Source of the DNA: Flavobacteriales bacterium
GTDB taxonomy: Bacteria > Bacteroidota > Bacteroidia > CAIKAF01
Assembly (NCBI GenBank): GCA_025451235.1
Contig: JANWKT010000044.1
Span: 1-64,000 of the forward strand
Length of the DNA stretch: 64,000 nucleotides
Direction: 5' to 3'
Shown in pieces: positions 161-7,769 of this stretch. The position numbers and the translations under genes were made by a program. How positions within the stretch are numbered: the first letter of the stretch is position 1; every line of letters begins with the position of its first letter. A model generated the notes under the pieces. It had not been told where the DNA came from and did no database searches. It saw only the letters and a list, made by a program, of their open reading frames with translations.

Positions 161-700
161 ATGAACAATTTATTCCCATTAACTCCCAGCGGCAAAGGCT
201 ATACAAAAAAGGATGGCACGAGAGGCTTTACATCTCAACCTCTTAAATGGTCCGATGCCATTCCCATGATTACCGAATACAGATCAAATCCAAAAAAACT
301 CACTAAAATTTACAAAGATCCTGCAACAGGTCAACCGGTTCAAAAAATCCTACAAGGGTTCCGAATTGACTCCGCTGATCTGCAAGACTTAATAAATAGA
401 GGCGCAACTGAGGTCTTTATTTCTTTTGCGGTTAGTCCAAAATGTGTTGGGAAAGATCCCGAAAAGCAAGGATTTACTATAATCGTTGCGGGTGTAAAAC
501 CAACTGAAACAAGTGGAGAATGTGGAGAGTTAATGCTAGATGATGTTGAAGAACCAGTTTTTGAATATTGTGATCCTTGCCCTCCTAAATGCCCCGTAAA
601 TTTATATTCGGAAATTGGAGCTAGTCAAGGAGACTTACCATGTTGTGGAAACTGCGAGTATGATACTCCCTGTGAAGATCCAAAAACAAAAAAGGCATAA
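161..700 (+). CDS. Small Cys-motif protein, first gene of a two-component operon
   Basis: I do not recognise the family. The 179-residue product has no signal peptide or membrane segment. Its N-terminal half is basic and polar. A central stretch (GFRIDSADLQDLI, then VFISFAV) aligns loosely with the next gene's product, so the two look like paralogs. Near residue 134 it carries EYCDPCPPKCP, a CxxCxxxC cluster, followed by more cysteines (PCCGNC) in the acidic C-terminus. Cysteine clusters of this kind often bind metal or form disulfides, but that is inference. It lies 21 bases before the next gene and opens a run of five plus-strand genes ending in a histidine kinase and response regulator, which suggests a shared role. 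The ATG at 161 is the first in frame and precedes the region matching the paralog. Confidence 0.75.
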   Translation: MNNLFPLTPSGKGYTKKDGTRGFTSQPLKWSDAIPMITEYRSNPKKLTKIYKDPATGQPVQKILQGFRIDSADLQDLINRGATEVFISFAVSPKCVGKDPEKQGFTIIVAGVKPTETSGECGELMLDDVEEPVFEYCDPCPPKCPVNLYSEIGASQGDLPCCGNCEYDTPCEDPKTKKA

Positions 701-721
701 TATTACTTAACCCTCCAAAAT

Positions 722-1234
722 ATGATAAATTTAAAAAGAAAAGTCCTAGTAGGATACTCCGTTTTAATAACTATAGGTTTTGCCGTGATACTACTCATGT
801 ATATTTCGAATATTCCAAAGAGTGGGAGCATTGAAAAAATAACATCTATAGATGTATCCTTGAATTCCACAAGGGAGTGGCACCAAGCATATTTAGACGA
901 TACTACTGCTTTGAAATACACGCATCCTGATGGTTCCAAGGAAACACTTGTTGGTTTTGCCTTGGATCGGGATGATATTAAACGAATAAAACAGAGTATT
1001 CTTATTCTTCCAAAACAGATTTTTATATTTTTTGGAAAAAAGGAAGATGAAGATGGGCAACAAAACTATGTTTTGATGTTTTCCGCTGTAGATAAGTATG
1101 TAGATGATAAATCCGCCTTAATACTTTTACCAGACGACTCAATGAGTACAGATACACATCTTTTGTACGAATATTGCGACCCCTGTCCTCCCAAATGTCC
1201 TTCAAATGTTGATAGCTTGAAGCGCAGGCGTTAA
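722..1234 (+). CDS. Membrane-anchored paralog with the same Cys motif
   Basis: Unknown family. The 170-residue product begins with a basic stretch and one hydrophobic helix (about residues 8-27), so it is probably anchored in the inner membrane with its body outside the cytoplasm. The body contains GFALDRDDIKRI followed by a hydrophobic strand, parallel to GFRIDSADLQDLI in the preceding product. Near the C-terminus it carries the identical eleven residues EYCDPCPPKCP. The two DNA copies of that motif differ only at synonymous third positions, so the protein sequence is under selection. Soluble and anchored versions next to each other suggest that they act on the same ligand or on each other (inference). 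The next gene starts 17 bases downstream. Confidence 0.75.
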   Translation: MINLKRKVLVGYSVLITIGFAVILLMYISNIPKSGSIEKITSIDVSLNSTREWHQAYLDDTTALKYTHPDGSKETLVGFALDRDDIKRIKQSILILPKQIFIFFGKKEDEDGQQNYVLMFSAVDKYVDDKSALILLPDDSMSTDTHLLYEYCDPCPPKCPSNVDSLKRRR

Positions 1235-1251: not shown

Positions 1252-1286
1252 ATGGACCGTATGATGAACTTAATGATACGGTCCAT
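1252..1286 (+). promoter_or_regulatory. Inverted repeat overlapping the start codon of the membrane protein
   Basis: ATGGACCGTAT (1252-1262) and ATACGGTCCAT (1276-1286) are perfect reverse complements separated by 13 bases. In mRNA this would form an 11-bp hairpin that hides the first start codon. No T-run follows on the plus strand, so it does not look like an intrinsic terminator. It may control translation of the membrane protein and kinase relative to the two upstream Cys-motif genes, or stabilise a processed transcript (inference). Confidence 0.6.
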
Positions 1287-1923
1287 TATTCACTTAGTAA
1301 TAATAGGGACCATTTTTATACTTGGGTATTGCAAGTTTGCCAATTTAAGACGTCCGTATCGCTTCTTAACAGGTCTTTTATTAGTTACATTTTTGAGTGA
1401 ACTGCTTGCCCTTCTATTAAAAATTACTACTAAAAATGCAGCCATTGTATATCATTTTTTTGTACCTATAGAATATTGTATGTTAAGTATTGTGCTTTAT
1501 CATCTGGCTTTGAAAAATTTAAAATGGTCACAGGTCTTTATTGTCCTTAGTGTCATTGCGGTTTGTATTTTTAGCATTACTAATATACTATTCCTACAAT
1601 CCCAGAAAGAGTTTCCAATATACCCCATTATCGTTTCAAGTGTTTTATGTTCCTTTCAGGGTCTGAGTATGTATGCATATATGATCAGGAACACCGAAAA
1701 CACCCCCTTGCATTTACAAGGAATATTTTGGCTAACAACAGGTTGTTTTATTTTTTACAGTATTGCGTTTTTTATTTTCAGTTCATCTGAATTTATGGAT
1801 GCTACAACTAACTTATTTCAACTTCTATTTGACATACTATGGTCAATGAACATCATAATGTACCTATTTTATGGACTGTCCATATATCTGGAGGCAAAAG
1901 CAAATAATTCGGTCGCAAAATGA
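1252..1923 (+). CDS. Seven-helix integral membrane protein, possible sensor partner of the kinase
   Basis: Unknown family. The 223-residue product is almost entirely hydrophobic. I count seven likely transmembrane segments, at about residues 10-28, 35-57, 63-85, 93-115, 122-144, 155-178 and 186-212, with short loops. Its stop codon overlaps the kinase start as ATGA at 1920-1923, so translation is probably coupled. The downstream kinase has only one helix and no sensory domain, so this protein may provide signal input (inference). The annotated ATG lies inside a perfect 11-bp inverted repeat. In-frame ATGs at codons 4, 5 and 8 are alternative starts that would leave all seven helices intact. 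Confidence 0.75.
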   Translation: MDRMMNLMIRSIIHLVIIGTIFILGYCKFANLRRPYRFLTGLLLVTFLSELLALLLKITTKNAAIVYHFFVPIEYCMLSIVLYHLALKNLKWSQVFIVLSVIAVCIFSITNILFLQSQKEFPIYPIIVSSVLCSFQGLSMYAYMIRNTENTPLHLQGIFWLTTGCFIFYSIAFFIFSSSEFMDATTNLFQLLFDILWSMNIIMYLFYGLSIYLEAKANNSVAK

Positions 1924-2702
1924 ACAACACAATATTTACCTTATCCGGCATATGCTTTTGTCTTTTAATTACAGGTTTTATCACCTATTTTATCTTCTTC
2001 TATCGCAAAAAACAAATCCAAAATGAACAGGAACAAAAAAGGCTGCAACTAAAATACAACCAAGCCCTCTTAGAATCCCAAATAGAGATCCAACAACAAC
2101 TATTACAACAGGTTTCTGGGGAGATCCATGATAATCTCGGGCAAGTAGCTGCTTTGATCAAATTGAACCTGGTTACTTTTCCCAAAGATATCCCACAGGA
2201 AGCTGCCAGTAAATTGGAACAGACCCGGGAGCTGATGAAGAAACTGATAACAGATCTAAAAGCATTGTCGATCAGCTTGAATACCGATTACCTGGAAGAT
2301 GAAGGTTTGTTCAAAATATTGGAAGTGGAATGTGAACGGCTCAATAGATCCGGATCGATCAAAGCAATTTTTGCTGCCTCTGGTTCTCAACCCTTATTGG
2401 ACATTGGCAAAGAGATCTTCCTCTATCGCATGGTACAGGAATTAATAGGCAATGTGTTGAAGCATGCGGAGGCTACCGAACTTATCCTGTCAGTAGATGG
2501 GAATGAAAAAGAATTAAGTATAGAGATCAGAGATAATGGCAAGGGCTTTGGCCTGGAAGAAATTGGAAAAAACGGGAACAAAACCAGCACAGGTTTGCGT
2601 AGTTTAAAAAAACGCTGTTTCCTTATTGGAGCTGAATTAAATATTAACACCAAGCAAGGAAATGGAACTCAGGTAAAAATTCGATTACCTTTAAGCGAAT
2701 AA
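1920..2702 (+). CDS. Sensor histidine kinase, NarL-partner type, without sensor domain
   Basis: A 260-residue kinase. One N-terminal transmembrane helix (about 7-27) is followed by a Gln-rich coiled coil and then the HisKA_3-type dimerisation motif GEIHDNLGQ, with the likely phospho-accepting His70. The HATPase part shows an N-box (ELIGNVLKHA, Asn178) and a G1 box (DNGKGFG, 205-211). Kinases of this group phosphorylate LuxR/NarL-type regulators, and such a regulator starts one base after this stop. There is no periplasmic, PAS, GAF or TPR input domain, so the signal probably comes through another protein. The coupled seven-helix membrane protein is the obvious candidate. Confidence 0.92.
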   Translation: MNNTIFTLSGICFCLLITGFITYFIFFYRKKQIQNEQEQKRLQLKYNQALLESQIEIQQQLLQQVSGEIHDNLGQVAALIKLNLVTFPKDIPQEAASKLEQTRELMKKLITDLKALSISLNTDYLEDEGLFKILEVECERLNRSGSIKAIFAASGSQPLLDIGKEIFLYRMVQELIGNVLKHAEATELILSVDGNEKELSIEIRDNGKGFGLEEIGKNGNKTSTGLRSLKKRCFLIGAELNINTKQGNGTQVKIRLPLSE

Positions 2703-2703
2703 A

Positions 2704-3357
2704 ATGGCAGAAAAACTCACCATAGGCGTAGTAGACGACCATACCTTGTTCCGCAAGGGATTGGTTGGTCTCATCAATGAACTCAAAGAAGGATACCAGG
2801 TAATATGGGAAGCGGACAACGGAGAACAATGCCTGATAAGACTTGAAAAGGAATCGGTGCCTGATATCCTCATGATGGATATCACCATGCCTATCATGGA
2901 TGGATATCAATTGGCGGAAATCGTCCGGAAAAAATATCCTTCATTACCTATACTAGTAGTATCGATGGTTGAAAAGGAAGAAGCATTGATCCGAATGCTG
3001 CGTTTGGGGATACGGGGATATCTATCCAAAGATATTGAGCCCGAAGAATTGCATACTGCCATTATCTCCATCAACAACAAAGGATACTATTATACGGATC
3101 ATGTTACTGGGAAACTCATTCGAGCCTTACAAGACGATTCCTTGAATCATGAAAATTCTATCCCGCTTTCGGAACGCGAAAAACAATTGCTCGAGTTGGT
3201 TTGCTCGGATGATACGTATAAAGAAATTGCAGATAAAATGTGCCTGAGTCCAAAAACAGTAGATACCTATCGAATGTCACTTTTCGAAAAACTACAGGTA
3301 AAATCCAGAACCGGCTTAGTCTTATATGCCATTAAGAGTGGAATGGTAAAAGTATAG
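2704..3357 (+). CDS. LuxR/NarL-family response regulator
   Basis: A 217-residue two-domain regulator. The receiver domain (about 1-120) has the acidic pair Asp11-Asp12, the phospho-acceptor Asp59 in MMDITMP, Ser87 and the conserved Lys109. The C-terminal GerE/LuxR helix-turn-helix (about 150-215) shows LSEREKQLLELV and the recognition helix region LSPKTVDTYR. It should dimerise and bind DNA after phosphorylation by the kinase encoded immediately upstream. Its target promoter is not evident. I find no clear direct or inverted repeat before the first gene of the operon. Confidence 0.95.
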   Translation: MAEKLTIGVVDDHTLFRKGLVGLINELKEGYQVIWEADNGEQCLIRLEKESVPDILMMDITMPIMDGYQLAEIVRKKYPSLPILVVSMVEKEEALIRMLRLGIRGYLSKDIEPEELHTAIISINNKGYYYTDHVTGKLIRALQDDSLNHENSIPLSEREKQLLELVCSDDTYKEIADKMCLSPKTVDTYRMSLFEKLQVKSRTGLVLYAIKSGMVKV

Positions 3358-3413: not shown

Positions 3414-4307
3414 ATGGAAAAAAGTCGAAAATCAGGGAGTATTATAAGCCTTATTTTGATTGCCGGAACAATGATCACCGTTTGGATCATTCGGGGAAAC
3501 AGTTCCAACAACTCTATAGAGAGGACTAAATATAAAACCAAAGAATTTGAATTTACCTTAGAAGATGCACCTGAAAAAATTCAGATGCATGACTTACTGG
3601 CTCAATACCAGCCCATGTATCCAGTTAAGAACCCCTGGATGTTCGTGCATTGGCAATGTTTAAAAAACGATGTTCGTAAAAGTCCCAGGTTTTTAGGAGT
3701 GGGAAATACCTTATATGTGGGTACCATATGGCAAAAAGATTTTACCTCCACCCGAACTACTCTCGAAAATCTTGGACTCAGTGAGCAAGAAATGAAACGT
3801 ATTGTTAAACGGGGTCAACCATCTTCCTGTGGTGTTTCTCGACTGACTGGTATAGATATTCATGCATTCCTGGATTTGGACACGAATTATTTTAATAAAA
3901 TAGACCTGGAGCTAGGGGCATTTATCAAAACCTCTAAAAAAACAGAAGTGGTGATCGAAAGTTTTGTGCCCATTGATCTGCTTACAGGGGATTTTATTGA
4001 CATGCTGGATAGCAGTAAAGACAATACCCGAAAAAAATACCTGAGATGGTTCAACGAGCCGGGAAATCTTATTTGTACCTGGACCTACGAGGTGAATGGA
4101 ATGTCTGTACTTGTTGAATCGGAGGATACGATTGGGGGAAACTTAAAAGCCAAACTTCAAAACAATCTACAATCTCCACCCGTTGATTTGCAACTAAGAA
4201 CAGGTTTTAAATATGTAAATAATAAGACGATCCAGATCAGCACCTCACAACCCTTCTATGTAATAGGTGGAGTAAAAAAAGTAATGAATGTAAAGCCTAA
4301 GAAATAG
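3414..4307 (+). CDS. Membrane-anchored protein of unknown function
   Basis: I do not recognise this 297-residue product. It has a short basic N-terminus, one hydrophobic helix (about 11-27) and a long polar region that is probably periplasmic. Two cysteines (in HWQCLKN and SSCGVSRL) could form a disulfide. The rest looks like a mixed alpha/beta fold with no motif I can name. It lies 56 bases after the response regulator on the same strand with no terminator in between, so it may belong to the same transcription unit. It converges with the M28 peptidase gene, with only two bases between the stop codons. Confidence 0.7.
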   Translation: MEKSRKSGSIISLILIAGTMITVWIIRGNSSNNSIERTKYKTKEFEFTLEDAPEKIQMHDLLAQYQPMYPVKNPWMFVHWQCLKNDVRKSPRFLGVGNTLYVGTIWQKDFTSTRTTLENLGLSEQEMKRIVKRGQPSSCGVSRLTGIDIHAFLDLDTNYFNKIDLELGAFIKTSKKTEVVIESFVPIDLLTGDFIDMLDSSKDNTRKKYLRWFNEPGNLICTWTYEVNGMSVLVESEDTIGGNLKAKLQNNLQSPPVDLQLRTGFKYVNNKTIQISTSQPFYVIGGVKKVMNVKPKK

Positions 4308-6068: not shown

Positions 6069-6929
6069 TCACTTAAACAATGAACGACTCTTTGCCTGGC
6101 CCGGTGCTATTTGATACATACCATGAGGCATGCTTTCCAACAAGATCTGCTGCGGGGCTTTTATAAAACCTTCCTTCTTGCTACCCAGATAAAAACTGAC
6201 CAATGGCCGTTTTCCTTCTTTTTCGATACAAAGATAATCCAACCAATTGTCATTGTTAAAATCGTAAAATACATAAGGACTTGGTGCTATTATGGGCCGC
6301 TTGATGCAATCCGCTTTGAAACCTCCGCTATGTAGGCCTGTACGATAATTGGTGAAAACAATGCAGCCATACTGCTGCTGCGAACCATTCTCCACCACAA
6401 ATGTATAGTAAACCAGGAGATAGGACGTATCATCAAAATGTCCCCGGGTAAAATTCACTATGTATAACCCTTCAACATAAAACTGATCACGGTCTTCCTC
6501 ATCCACCCATGATAAAAGAGGAATATTCAGCAAAGGGATCCGGCCCATGGGATCGGCCCACTCAAAATACATGCGGTTGTTTTGGTGGTTATAATGGAAA
6601 AATATATTAGAATTTGGGAAATTGGAATAATCAATTGACTCCCCTACCGCATAATCATGCTGTTCACCTCTTTGGTGCACCTCGGTAACTACGCTTCTTA
6701 ATTTGTTTCCAAAACAACGAAAGTGAAAATACTTTTTGAGCAAATACAAGTTGTTAAAGTTGATCTCTTCTTCCCCTAAGCCAAAATCTGTTGTGAATAT
6801 AGAATATTGCACAGGTCTGATAGGTTTTCCGCCTAGCCTACCTGGATTTTGAGTTTCCGCATATATGCCTACAATCCAAATGAAACAAAAACAGCAAAAA
6901 ATAAGCGGTAATAGGTTTTTCATATTCAT
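6069..6929 (-). CDS. Exported FG-GAP-like protein, second of a tandem pair
   Basis: Unknown function. The 286-residue product has an N-terminal signal peptide (hydrophobic to about residue 24). Its body matches the product encoded immediately upstream: both have a TDFG motif followed by a (D/N)FxN element near the start, and both have a PYxFxDxNxDxWLDY segment near residue 215. That last segment resembles the acidic loop of VCBS/FG-GAP repeats, which can bind calcium, but only one or two blades are visible. The pair probably arose by tandem duplication followed by strong divergence. Only three bases separate the two genes, so they are co-transcribed. An alternative ATG lies two codons downstream. 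Confidence 0.75.
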   Translation of the reverse strand: MNMKNLLPLIFCCFCFIWIVGIYAETQNPGRLGGKPIRPVQYSIFTTDFGLGEEEINFNNLYLLKKYFHFRCFGNKLRSVVTEVHQRGEQHDYAVGESIDYSNFPNSNIFFHYNHQNNRMYFEWADPMGRIPLLNIPLLSWVDEEDRDQFYVEGLYIVNFTRGHFDDTSYLLVYYTFVVENGSQQQYGCIVFTNYRTGLHSGGFKADCIKRPIIAPSPYVFYDFNNDNWLDYLCIEKEGKRPLVSFYLGSKKEGFIKAPQQILLESMPHGMYQIAPGQAKSRSLFK

Positions 6930-6932
6930 GTT

Positions 6933-7769
6933 TTAACGGCATGAGTCCGGCAAAGCCAAATTTAAGCTATCTACAGCAAATAGTTGGTCCCCTGTATAAG
7001 AAACAGGTATTTTATACGAACTGTTCCGGATAAAATTTACTCCCTTGCCATCGTAAAAACTCACCTCAGGCTTCGCTGCATAGGGATTGAAATGAATATA
7101 ATCCAACCATCCATCGCAATTATAATCCATAAATGCGTAGGGTGAAGTGCTGATCTGCCGATAGGGCAAAAGTCGGTAACTAAAATCTCCCTCTAAAGTT
7201 TTACAAAAAAGGAGAATACAGGATTCAAGATATGTGTTATTGGGTACCATAAAGCAGAAAAAGACCACCATATATTCAGTAGCCGGACCTGCCCCAGGGG
7301 CCAGACGAATGGTATAGGCAGAAGGAATAGTAAAAAGTACATTATAATCTGGATCCACCCCAACCTGGGTTGATAGGCTTCCCTGATGCTTGTAATGAGG
7401 CGGCTTACCAATACCAAAATTTATTTTACCGGTGTTCACATTAAAATCAAGGAAAACGATGTGATAGACCCAGGAATCATTTTCGAGTAAATAATGACAG
7501 TCGGCCCTGGCATCTACCTTCATTTCTTTAGCAATTGCCTGGTTGTTGTTGATCATCTTGTAATGAAAATGGCGGCACAAAGAAAAATTATCGAAATCGA
7601 TGGTCTGAGTTTCGTATCCAAAGTCTGTTTCGAACAAAGTGAATTCCACTTTTTTTAAAGACTTGGCTTGAGAAGGGTTTTGAGCAGCATCCTTTTGTGC
7701 CATAACGAATGCTGGGAAAAATAAAAGCCAGGTCACGCAAATGAGCGTCGTTTTATGAATAATGGTCAT
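6933..7769 (-). CDS. Exported FG-GAP-like protein, first of a tandem pair
   Basis: A 278-residue exported protein of unknown function with a signal peptide ending near residue 25 (VMAQK). Shared landmarks with the downstream paralog are ETDFGYETQTIDFDNF near the start and SPYAFMDYNCDGWLDY near residue 215. The latter resembles an FG-GAP/VCBS calcium loop. The cysteine content is moderate (HYLLEN and ESCILLFCKT regions), so disulfides are possible. It lies upstream in a two-gene unit. I see no clear TAnnTTTG box before it. Confidence 0.75.
   Translation of the reverse strand: MTIIHKTTLICVTWLLFFPAFVMAQKDAAQNPSQAKSLKKVEFTLFETDFGYETQTIDFDNFSLCRHFHYKMINNNQAIAKEMKVDARADCHYLLENDSWVYHIVFLDFNVNTGKINFGIGKPPHYKHQGSLSTQVGVDPDYNVLFTIPSAYTIRLAPGAGPATEYMVVFFCFMVPNNTYLESCILLFCKTLEGDFSYRLLPYRQISTSPYAFMDYNCDGWLDYIHFNPYAAKPEVSFYDGKGVNFIRNSSYKIPVSYTGDQLFAVDSLNLALPDSCR

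Follow-up and report, generated by a model that had tools for sequence, protein, structure and literature searches.

The 64,000-nucleotide stretch of DNA analyzed here (the window) carries one copy of a Bacteroidota-wide signaling module, in which a small tailed protein and a seven-helix membrane protein (7TM) probably form the sensor for a histidine kinase without a sensor domain; we put the probability of this reading at roughly 55%. Small protein, 7TM, kinase, and regulator constitute a real, conserved, and unnamed signaling module of the Bacteroidota; the small proteins and the 7TM protein represent two families, neither of which has an entry in Pfam or NCBIfam. The small protein and the 7TM are read as the sensor because the kinase is sensor-less, because the pair is constant, and because the pair also precedes PAS-HisKA kinases. 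The data behind this reading are the protein family itself, its gene neighborhood, the predicted fold of the 7TM, and the locus-specific sharing of tails.

The window copy of the module comprises the following features:

161..700, + strand, small protein 1 (179 aa; domain at about residues 21-134, tail EYCDPCPPKCP at residues 135-145)
563..595, + strand, EYCDPCPPKCP codons of small protein 1 (copy 1)
722..1234, + strand, small protein 2 (170 aa; helix at about residues 12-30, domain at residues 38-149, tail at residues 150-160)
1169..1201, + strand, EYCDPCPPKCP codons of small protein 2 (copy 2)
1252..1923, + strand, seven-helix membrane protein (223 aa; assigned by AlphaFold, alignment, conservation, and charge)
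1920..2702, + strand, histidine kinase (260 aa; HisKA_3 with H70, and HATPase_c)
2704..3357, + strand, NarL/LuxR-type response regulator (217 aa; Response_reg with D59, and GerE)

The gaps between successive genes are 21, 17, −4, and 1 bases. The kinase has one helix and no sensor domain, with phospho-acceptor H70 and the N and G boxes present, and the regulator has a REC domain with D59 plus GerE; as a HisKA_3 kinase with a NarL/LuxR regulator, the two make up a two-component system. The AlphaFold model, the domain matches, and the gaps confirmed the compact operon with a seven-helix protein, a sensor-less kinase, and a LuxR-type regulator that an initial annotation of this DNA had described. 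Just 3' of the regulator, positions 3414-4307 (+) encode a 297-aa protein with one N-terminal helix and no Pfam match; this protein was not seen within the conserved module in relatives. Positions 6069-6929 and 6933-7769 (−) encode adjacent, similar-looking secreted proteins of 286 and 278 aa, one of which has a sub-threshold FG-GAP match; the pair resembles a tandem duplication.

The same annotation had reported EYCDPCPPKCP in both small proteins, and the two copies, at 563-595 and 1169-1201, were found to differ at 7 of 11 codons. Every difference is synonymous, which supports its further claim of purifying selection acting on the motif at the protein level. It had also described one protein as soluble-looking and the other as anchored by one helix, and both assignments stood. 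Small protein 1 lacks any hydrophobic segment, and the in-frame TAA stop 15 bases 5' of its ATG rules out a missed leader or hidden signal peptide. Small protein 2 has a single N-terminal helix, with KRK ahead of the helix, and is N-in by charge; by the positive-inside rule, its domain should therefore face outside.

The two small proteins have more than the tail in common. A domain of ∼100 residues aligns over both, and one profile finds both. Its pattern runs "IS..A..W...Y", a short strand-helix element, "[VI]R.Y.G", and "..[LT]...VG.[DK]", followed by a linker and the tail. AlphaFold predicted an alpha/beta core of moderate confidence (block means, 74 to 90) and a low-confidence tail. Long variants of 246 to 270 aa (L078, L079, L081, L083, L087, and L146) have a similar-looking second domain ahead of the profiled domain and the C-terminal end YDW[ATS][KQ]PCPP. 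Among 74 small proteins, an export signal or anchor was absent in 61 and present in 13, and some members are exported lipoproteins or anchored proteins.

Relatives of the small proteins were collected with a profile that started from the window pair and three proteins of a related genome (G011, the MAG "Bacteroidia bacterium isolate Desfum bin_9"). Profiles of 5 and then 11 sequences found relatives in 8/395 genomes of the class and 37/395 genomes of the phylum, and with a profile of 38 sequences, copies turned up in 7 of the 16 genomes from the window's own family. Given these relatives, chance is excluded. Genome contigs yielded no relatives when searched with a single sequence and two loci when searched with an alignment; tblastn of plasmids with two family members as queries found nothing, and one match of the first profile (L022 in G163) was false, with no module at the locus. 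The module occurs in at least 16 Bacteroidota family codes, inside and outside the class (f1, f11, f15, f20, f22, f35, f38, f40, f49, f52, f54, f61, f63, f68, f81, and f105). The window's own genome (G000) has two further loci beyond the window, on contigs C8 and C34. The first, at ∼302.6 to 303.6 kb of C8, is a complete module; the second (L127, at ∼64 to 73 kb of C34, with the small protein at ∼68 kb) has a small protein and a 7TM only. At L127 a tyrosine recombinase gene adjoins the pair and a kinase is absent nearby, leaving a sensor pair without its own output.

The small proteins had no Pfam or NCBIfam match above the curated cutoffs and no significant relative by PDB sequence search or Foldseek, and PADLOC gave no match for them and no link to defense. 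The initial annotation had proposed that the unit is undescribed. It indeed looks so within the limits of Pfam, NCBIfam, the PDB, and the open-access literature, to which the claim is confined and with all of which it is consistent; the literature searched held nothing relevant.

Next, the gene neighborhoods were annotated by profiles and recounted over all six frames. For the phylum, 34 loci were chosen by the small protein alone, with contig-edge locus L091 left out. A 7TM gene lay within 5 kb downstream on the same strand at 34/34 of these loci, a HisKA_3 kinase was found at 33/34 and a regulator at 33/34, and all three partners were found at 32/34. Among nine loci in the window's own family, the profile detected the 7TM in seven, and the module was complete in five. 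Several of the incomplete loci are cut by contig ends: L129 and L132 are cut by or near such ends, and L132 has a seven-helix ORF under the profile threshold. At L133, two small-protein genes stand with neither a 7TM nor another partner nearby. The co-occurrence predicted by the initial annotation was thus borne out; the case that it had set against itself, homologs that for the most part lack the kinase and membrane protein, did not materialize.

A reverse search by 7TM profile yielded 31 loci, with a small-protein profile match in 16. At most of the remaining 15, an unannotated ORF, usually of 140 to 310 aa, lies immediately upstream. The upstream ORFs of L158, L160, L164, and L165 are homologous to the small domain by profile-profile comparison (probability, 92%; E, 7e-7; reversed control, 0.4%). 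These divergent upstream members often have proline-containing tails without cysteine, and by eye they are often lipoproteins. The kinase can be exchanged while the pair is kept: at L139 (2071-5172) and L090 (4424-7622), the small protein and 7TM are followed by a PAS-HisKA-HATPase kinase (with a REC domain also in L090), which stands in for the HisKA_3/NarL pair. L135 was rejected as such a swap, since an NqrF-like gene rather than a retained small protein lies upstream of its 7TM, kinase, and LytTR regulator.

Two further features of the neighborhoods were observed. At L075, L141, L150, and L157, two or three consecutive 7TM genes lie between small protein and kinase, which suggests receptor duplication. 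In several g63 genomes (L021, L057, L062, L067, and L071), one to three tandem genes lie divergently to the module and encode 183- to 185-aa proteins that resemble homologues of phage tail-collar (microcystin-dependent) proteins; genes for 382- and 311-aa proteins then follow, and the genes of this divergent group may be targets.

AlphaFold modeled the window 7TM with seven helices at a mean pLDDT of 94.6. Over 31 7TM members, Lys plus Arg came to 3.0, 2.1, 1.7, and 2.7 in loops 1-2, 3-4, and 5-6 and the C terminus, respectively, and to 0.4 to 1.1 in the N terminus and the remaining loops; by the positive-inside rule, this charge distribution gives an N-out/C-in orientation. The best-conserved polar positions (N62/63, H68, E74, E50, 122, and 180), as placed by helix boundaries, would sit toward the outer half. 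Neither PDB sequence search nor Foldseek gave a significant relative, and the closest solved folds, GPCRs and proteorhodopsins, had nonsignificant Foldseek E values of ≥0.02. Sub-cutoff Pfam matches to 7TMR-DISM_7TM occurred in 7/31 members (best E, 0.00045) and not in the window protein. Homology to 7TMR-DISM (PF07695) was rejected, with a profile-profile probability of 7.6% that was no better than the reversed control. Identity as a microbial rhodopsin (PF01036) was likewise rejected (profile-profile probability, 0.1%), and helix 7 of the window protein has no Lys before its cytoplasmic end and so none for a retinal Schiff base.

The tail typically reads [YF]-[DE]-x-x-x-P-C-P-P-x-C, and its cysteines bear on the rival explanation that survives best, in which the disulfide or metal state of a CPxxC tail gates the 7TM and kinase as a redox or metal sensor. 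In its favor, 54 of 74 members have CPxxC, the three motif cysteines are kept in both window copies, and small protein 1, whose C terminus beyond the tail is Cys-rich, has nine cysteines in total. However, 14 members have one tail Cys (CP only) and 6 have none, and relatives with the same operon lack the second Cys or both (tails RPCPPYGDP and TRPSPPF); the divergent members with Cys-free proline tails point the same way. Leaderless and exported members alike carry the tail, so that it encounters differing redox environments, and the best-conserved columns of the 7TM include no Cys. Because Cys is missing in members with intact operons, cysteine chemistry cannot be the general mechanism, and we consider such a sensor unlikely; it may operate in the CPxxC majority, and a reading restricted to that subfamily could still hold. 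Of the signaling unit proposed in the initial annotation, the conserved set of small protein, membrane protein, and kinase therefore stood, and the Cys-cluster ligand-binding or redox module, taken as a general feature, did not. That annotation had also counted motif variation against itself. Such variation is present around C-P in the window's own family (for example, EYLKPCPDNCP), but it is locus specific and common to paralogues and therefore points to a role in recognition.

Locus specificity was examined by comparing tails within and between loci. Paralogues at the same locus shared 7 to 8 of 9 scored tail positions in 4/6 pairs (the window, L026, L021, and L057); the pairs at L085 and L133 had no shared tail. 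Between loci, equal sharing was found in 6/2,195 pairs with domain identity of <0.30. The Fisher P value was 3e-9, or 5e-7 with the related L021 and L057 counted once, values that serve as guides because the pairs are not fully independent. The shared tails of the four pairs differ by three to seven synonymous codons. In the window, the domains are ∼20% identical and the tails are identical, and in the domain tree the two paralogues are not sisters: protein 1 groups with L020/L025/L026, and protein 2 lies near L019. The two paralogues of L026 are sisters. The AU test does not reject sisterhood of the window paralogues (P = 0.065), so tail sharing could partly be ancestry.

Tail distance was also compared with the distances of the partner proteins. 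In a partial Mantel analysis of 57 loci, it tracked the 7TM (r = 0.14, P = 0.004, given domain, kinase, and regulator) and did not track the kinase (P = 0.22), the regulator (P = 0.78), or the tail's own domain (P = 0.39). This signal is suggestive only, given its small size and the strong intercorrelation of the matrices (0.74 to 0.95). Taken together, the sequences point to a tail that behaves like a recognition peptide rather than a general Cys module.

In the favored model, the small domain protein, with its flexible C-terminal tail, and the receptor-like 7TM would form a two-part sensor. This pair would control the HisKA_3 kinase, which in turn would signal through the NarL/LuxR-type DNA-binding regulator. 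The most likely role of the tail is to dock on the 7TM and thereby relay to the kinase whether the small domain is ligand-bound or free, or has been released; both window small proteins carry the same tail and therefore would address the same receptor. Physical docking of the tail on the 7TM, control of the kinase by the 7TM, and the existence of a ligand are inferred. A bolder and clearly less likely form of the model makes the tail a locus-specific key for a GPCR-like, stand-alone 7TM, with an invariant pair onto which kinases are plugged and which may act in protein-ligand sensing or cell-to-cell signaling.

The main weakness of the favored model is topological. In the window, at L021, and at L057, one paralogue is leaderless and the other is exported or anchored, with the same or nearly the same tail, and one docking site cannot simply serve small proteins on both sides of the membrane. 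We see three options: leaderless small proteins may exit the cell by some route, the docking site may be reachable from inside with the anchored forms inserted otherwise than predicted, or leaderless and anchored small proteins may do different things.

Another explanation would make the small protein, or a C-terminal tail released from it, an agonist of the cognate 7TM in a pheromone-like autocrine system. The locus-specific tail that tracks the 7TM, the placement of conserved polar residues close to the outer ends of the 7TM helices, and the members that are exported lipoproteins or anchored proteins would all suit such a system. Most members lack a signal peptide, however, the module neighborhoods yielded neither a processing site nor an exporter, and near relatives conserve the tail more than the domain, unlike fast-diversifying pheromones. 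We regard the explanation as rather improbable; should the tail indeed be an agonist of the 7TM, the two would represent a novel type of receptor-ligand pair in bacteria.

It is quite improbable that the small protein is instead a cytosolic accessory regulator of the kinase, as NreA is for NreB, with the 7TM sensing independently. Most members are leaderless, and the distances of domain and kinase are correlated as well (r = 0.22, P = 0.002), as would be expected of such a regulator. Against this, small protein and 7TM stay together at L090 and L139, where the kinase is of the PAS-HisKA type, and at L127, which is without a kinase, and exported members exist. Finally, identity of the window tails as leftover ancestry or an old 3'-end gene conversion without functional meaning is very unlikely: it would accord with the AU result and with the sister paralogues of L026, but an identical tail on domains that are only ∼20% identical, with 7/11 codons synonymously different, indicates that selection kept the tail, and L021 and L057 repeat the pattern.

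Many Bacteroidota genomes encode histidine kinases without a recognizable sensor. For one class of these, the favored model offers a testable answer, namely, that sensing is the task of a 7TM with a gene of its own and of its small tailed partner. Under this model, new protein families would supply the sensor within the known multicomponent histidine kinase systems, with a recurring gene order and a short tail as the candidate for specificity.

Several known systems resemble the module. In UhpB/UhpC-UhpA and NreABC, a sensor-less or accessory-dependent HisKA_3 kinase works with a NarL-type regulator, and sensing is done by a partner protein; UhpC is a 12-helix transporter homologue, and NreA is a GAF protein. 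The searches made here matched neither the small protein nor the 7TM to either kind, and by Pfam the small proteins have no GAF domain. In systems of the LiaF/LiaS type, a short HisKA_3 kinase is controlled by a separately encoded membrane protein. The window kinase has a sub-cutoff match to this type (NCBIfam NF052531; 67 of 450 bits), whereas the partner of the module's kinase is a 7TM with a small tailed protein. GPCRs and microbial rhodopsins likewise are seven-helix bundles with N-out/C-in orientation, with TM-scores to the module 7TM of up to 0.66 (proteorhodopsin), but hhalign gave no sequence relation. In 7TMR-DISM proteins (PF07695 with DISMED), as in the module, seven membrane helices feed histidine kinases in Bacteroidota; there, the 7TM is fused to DISMED and an output domain, whereas here the 7TM, the outer or accessory domain, and the kinase are encoded by separate genes.
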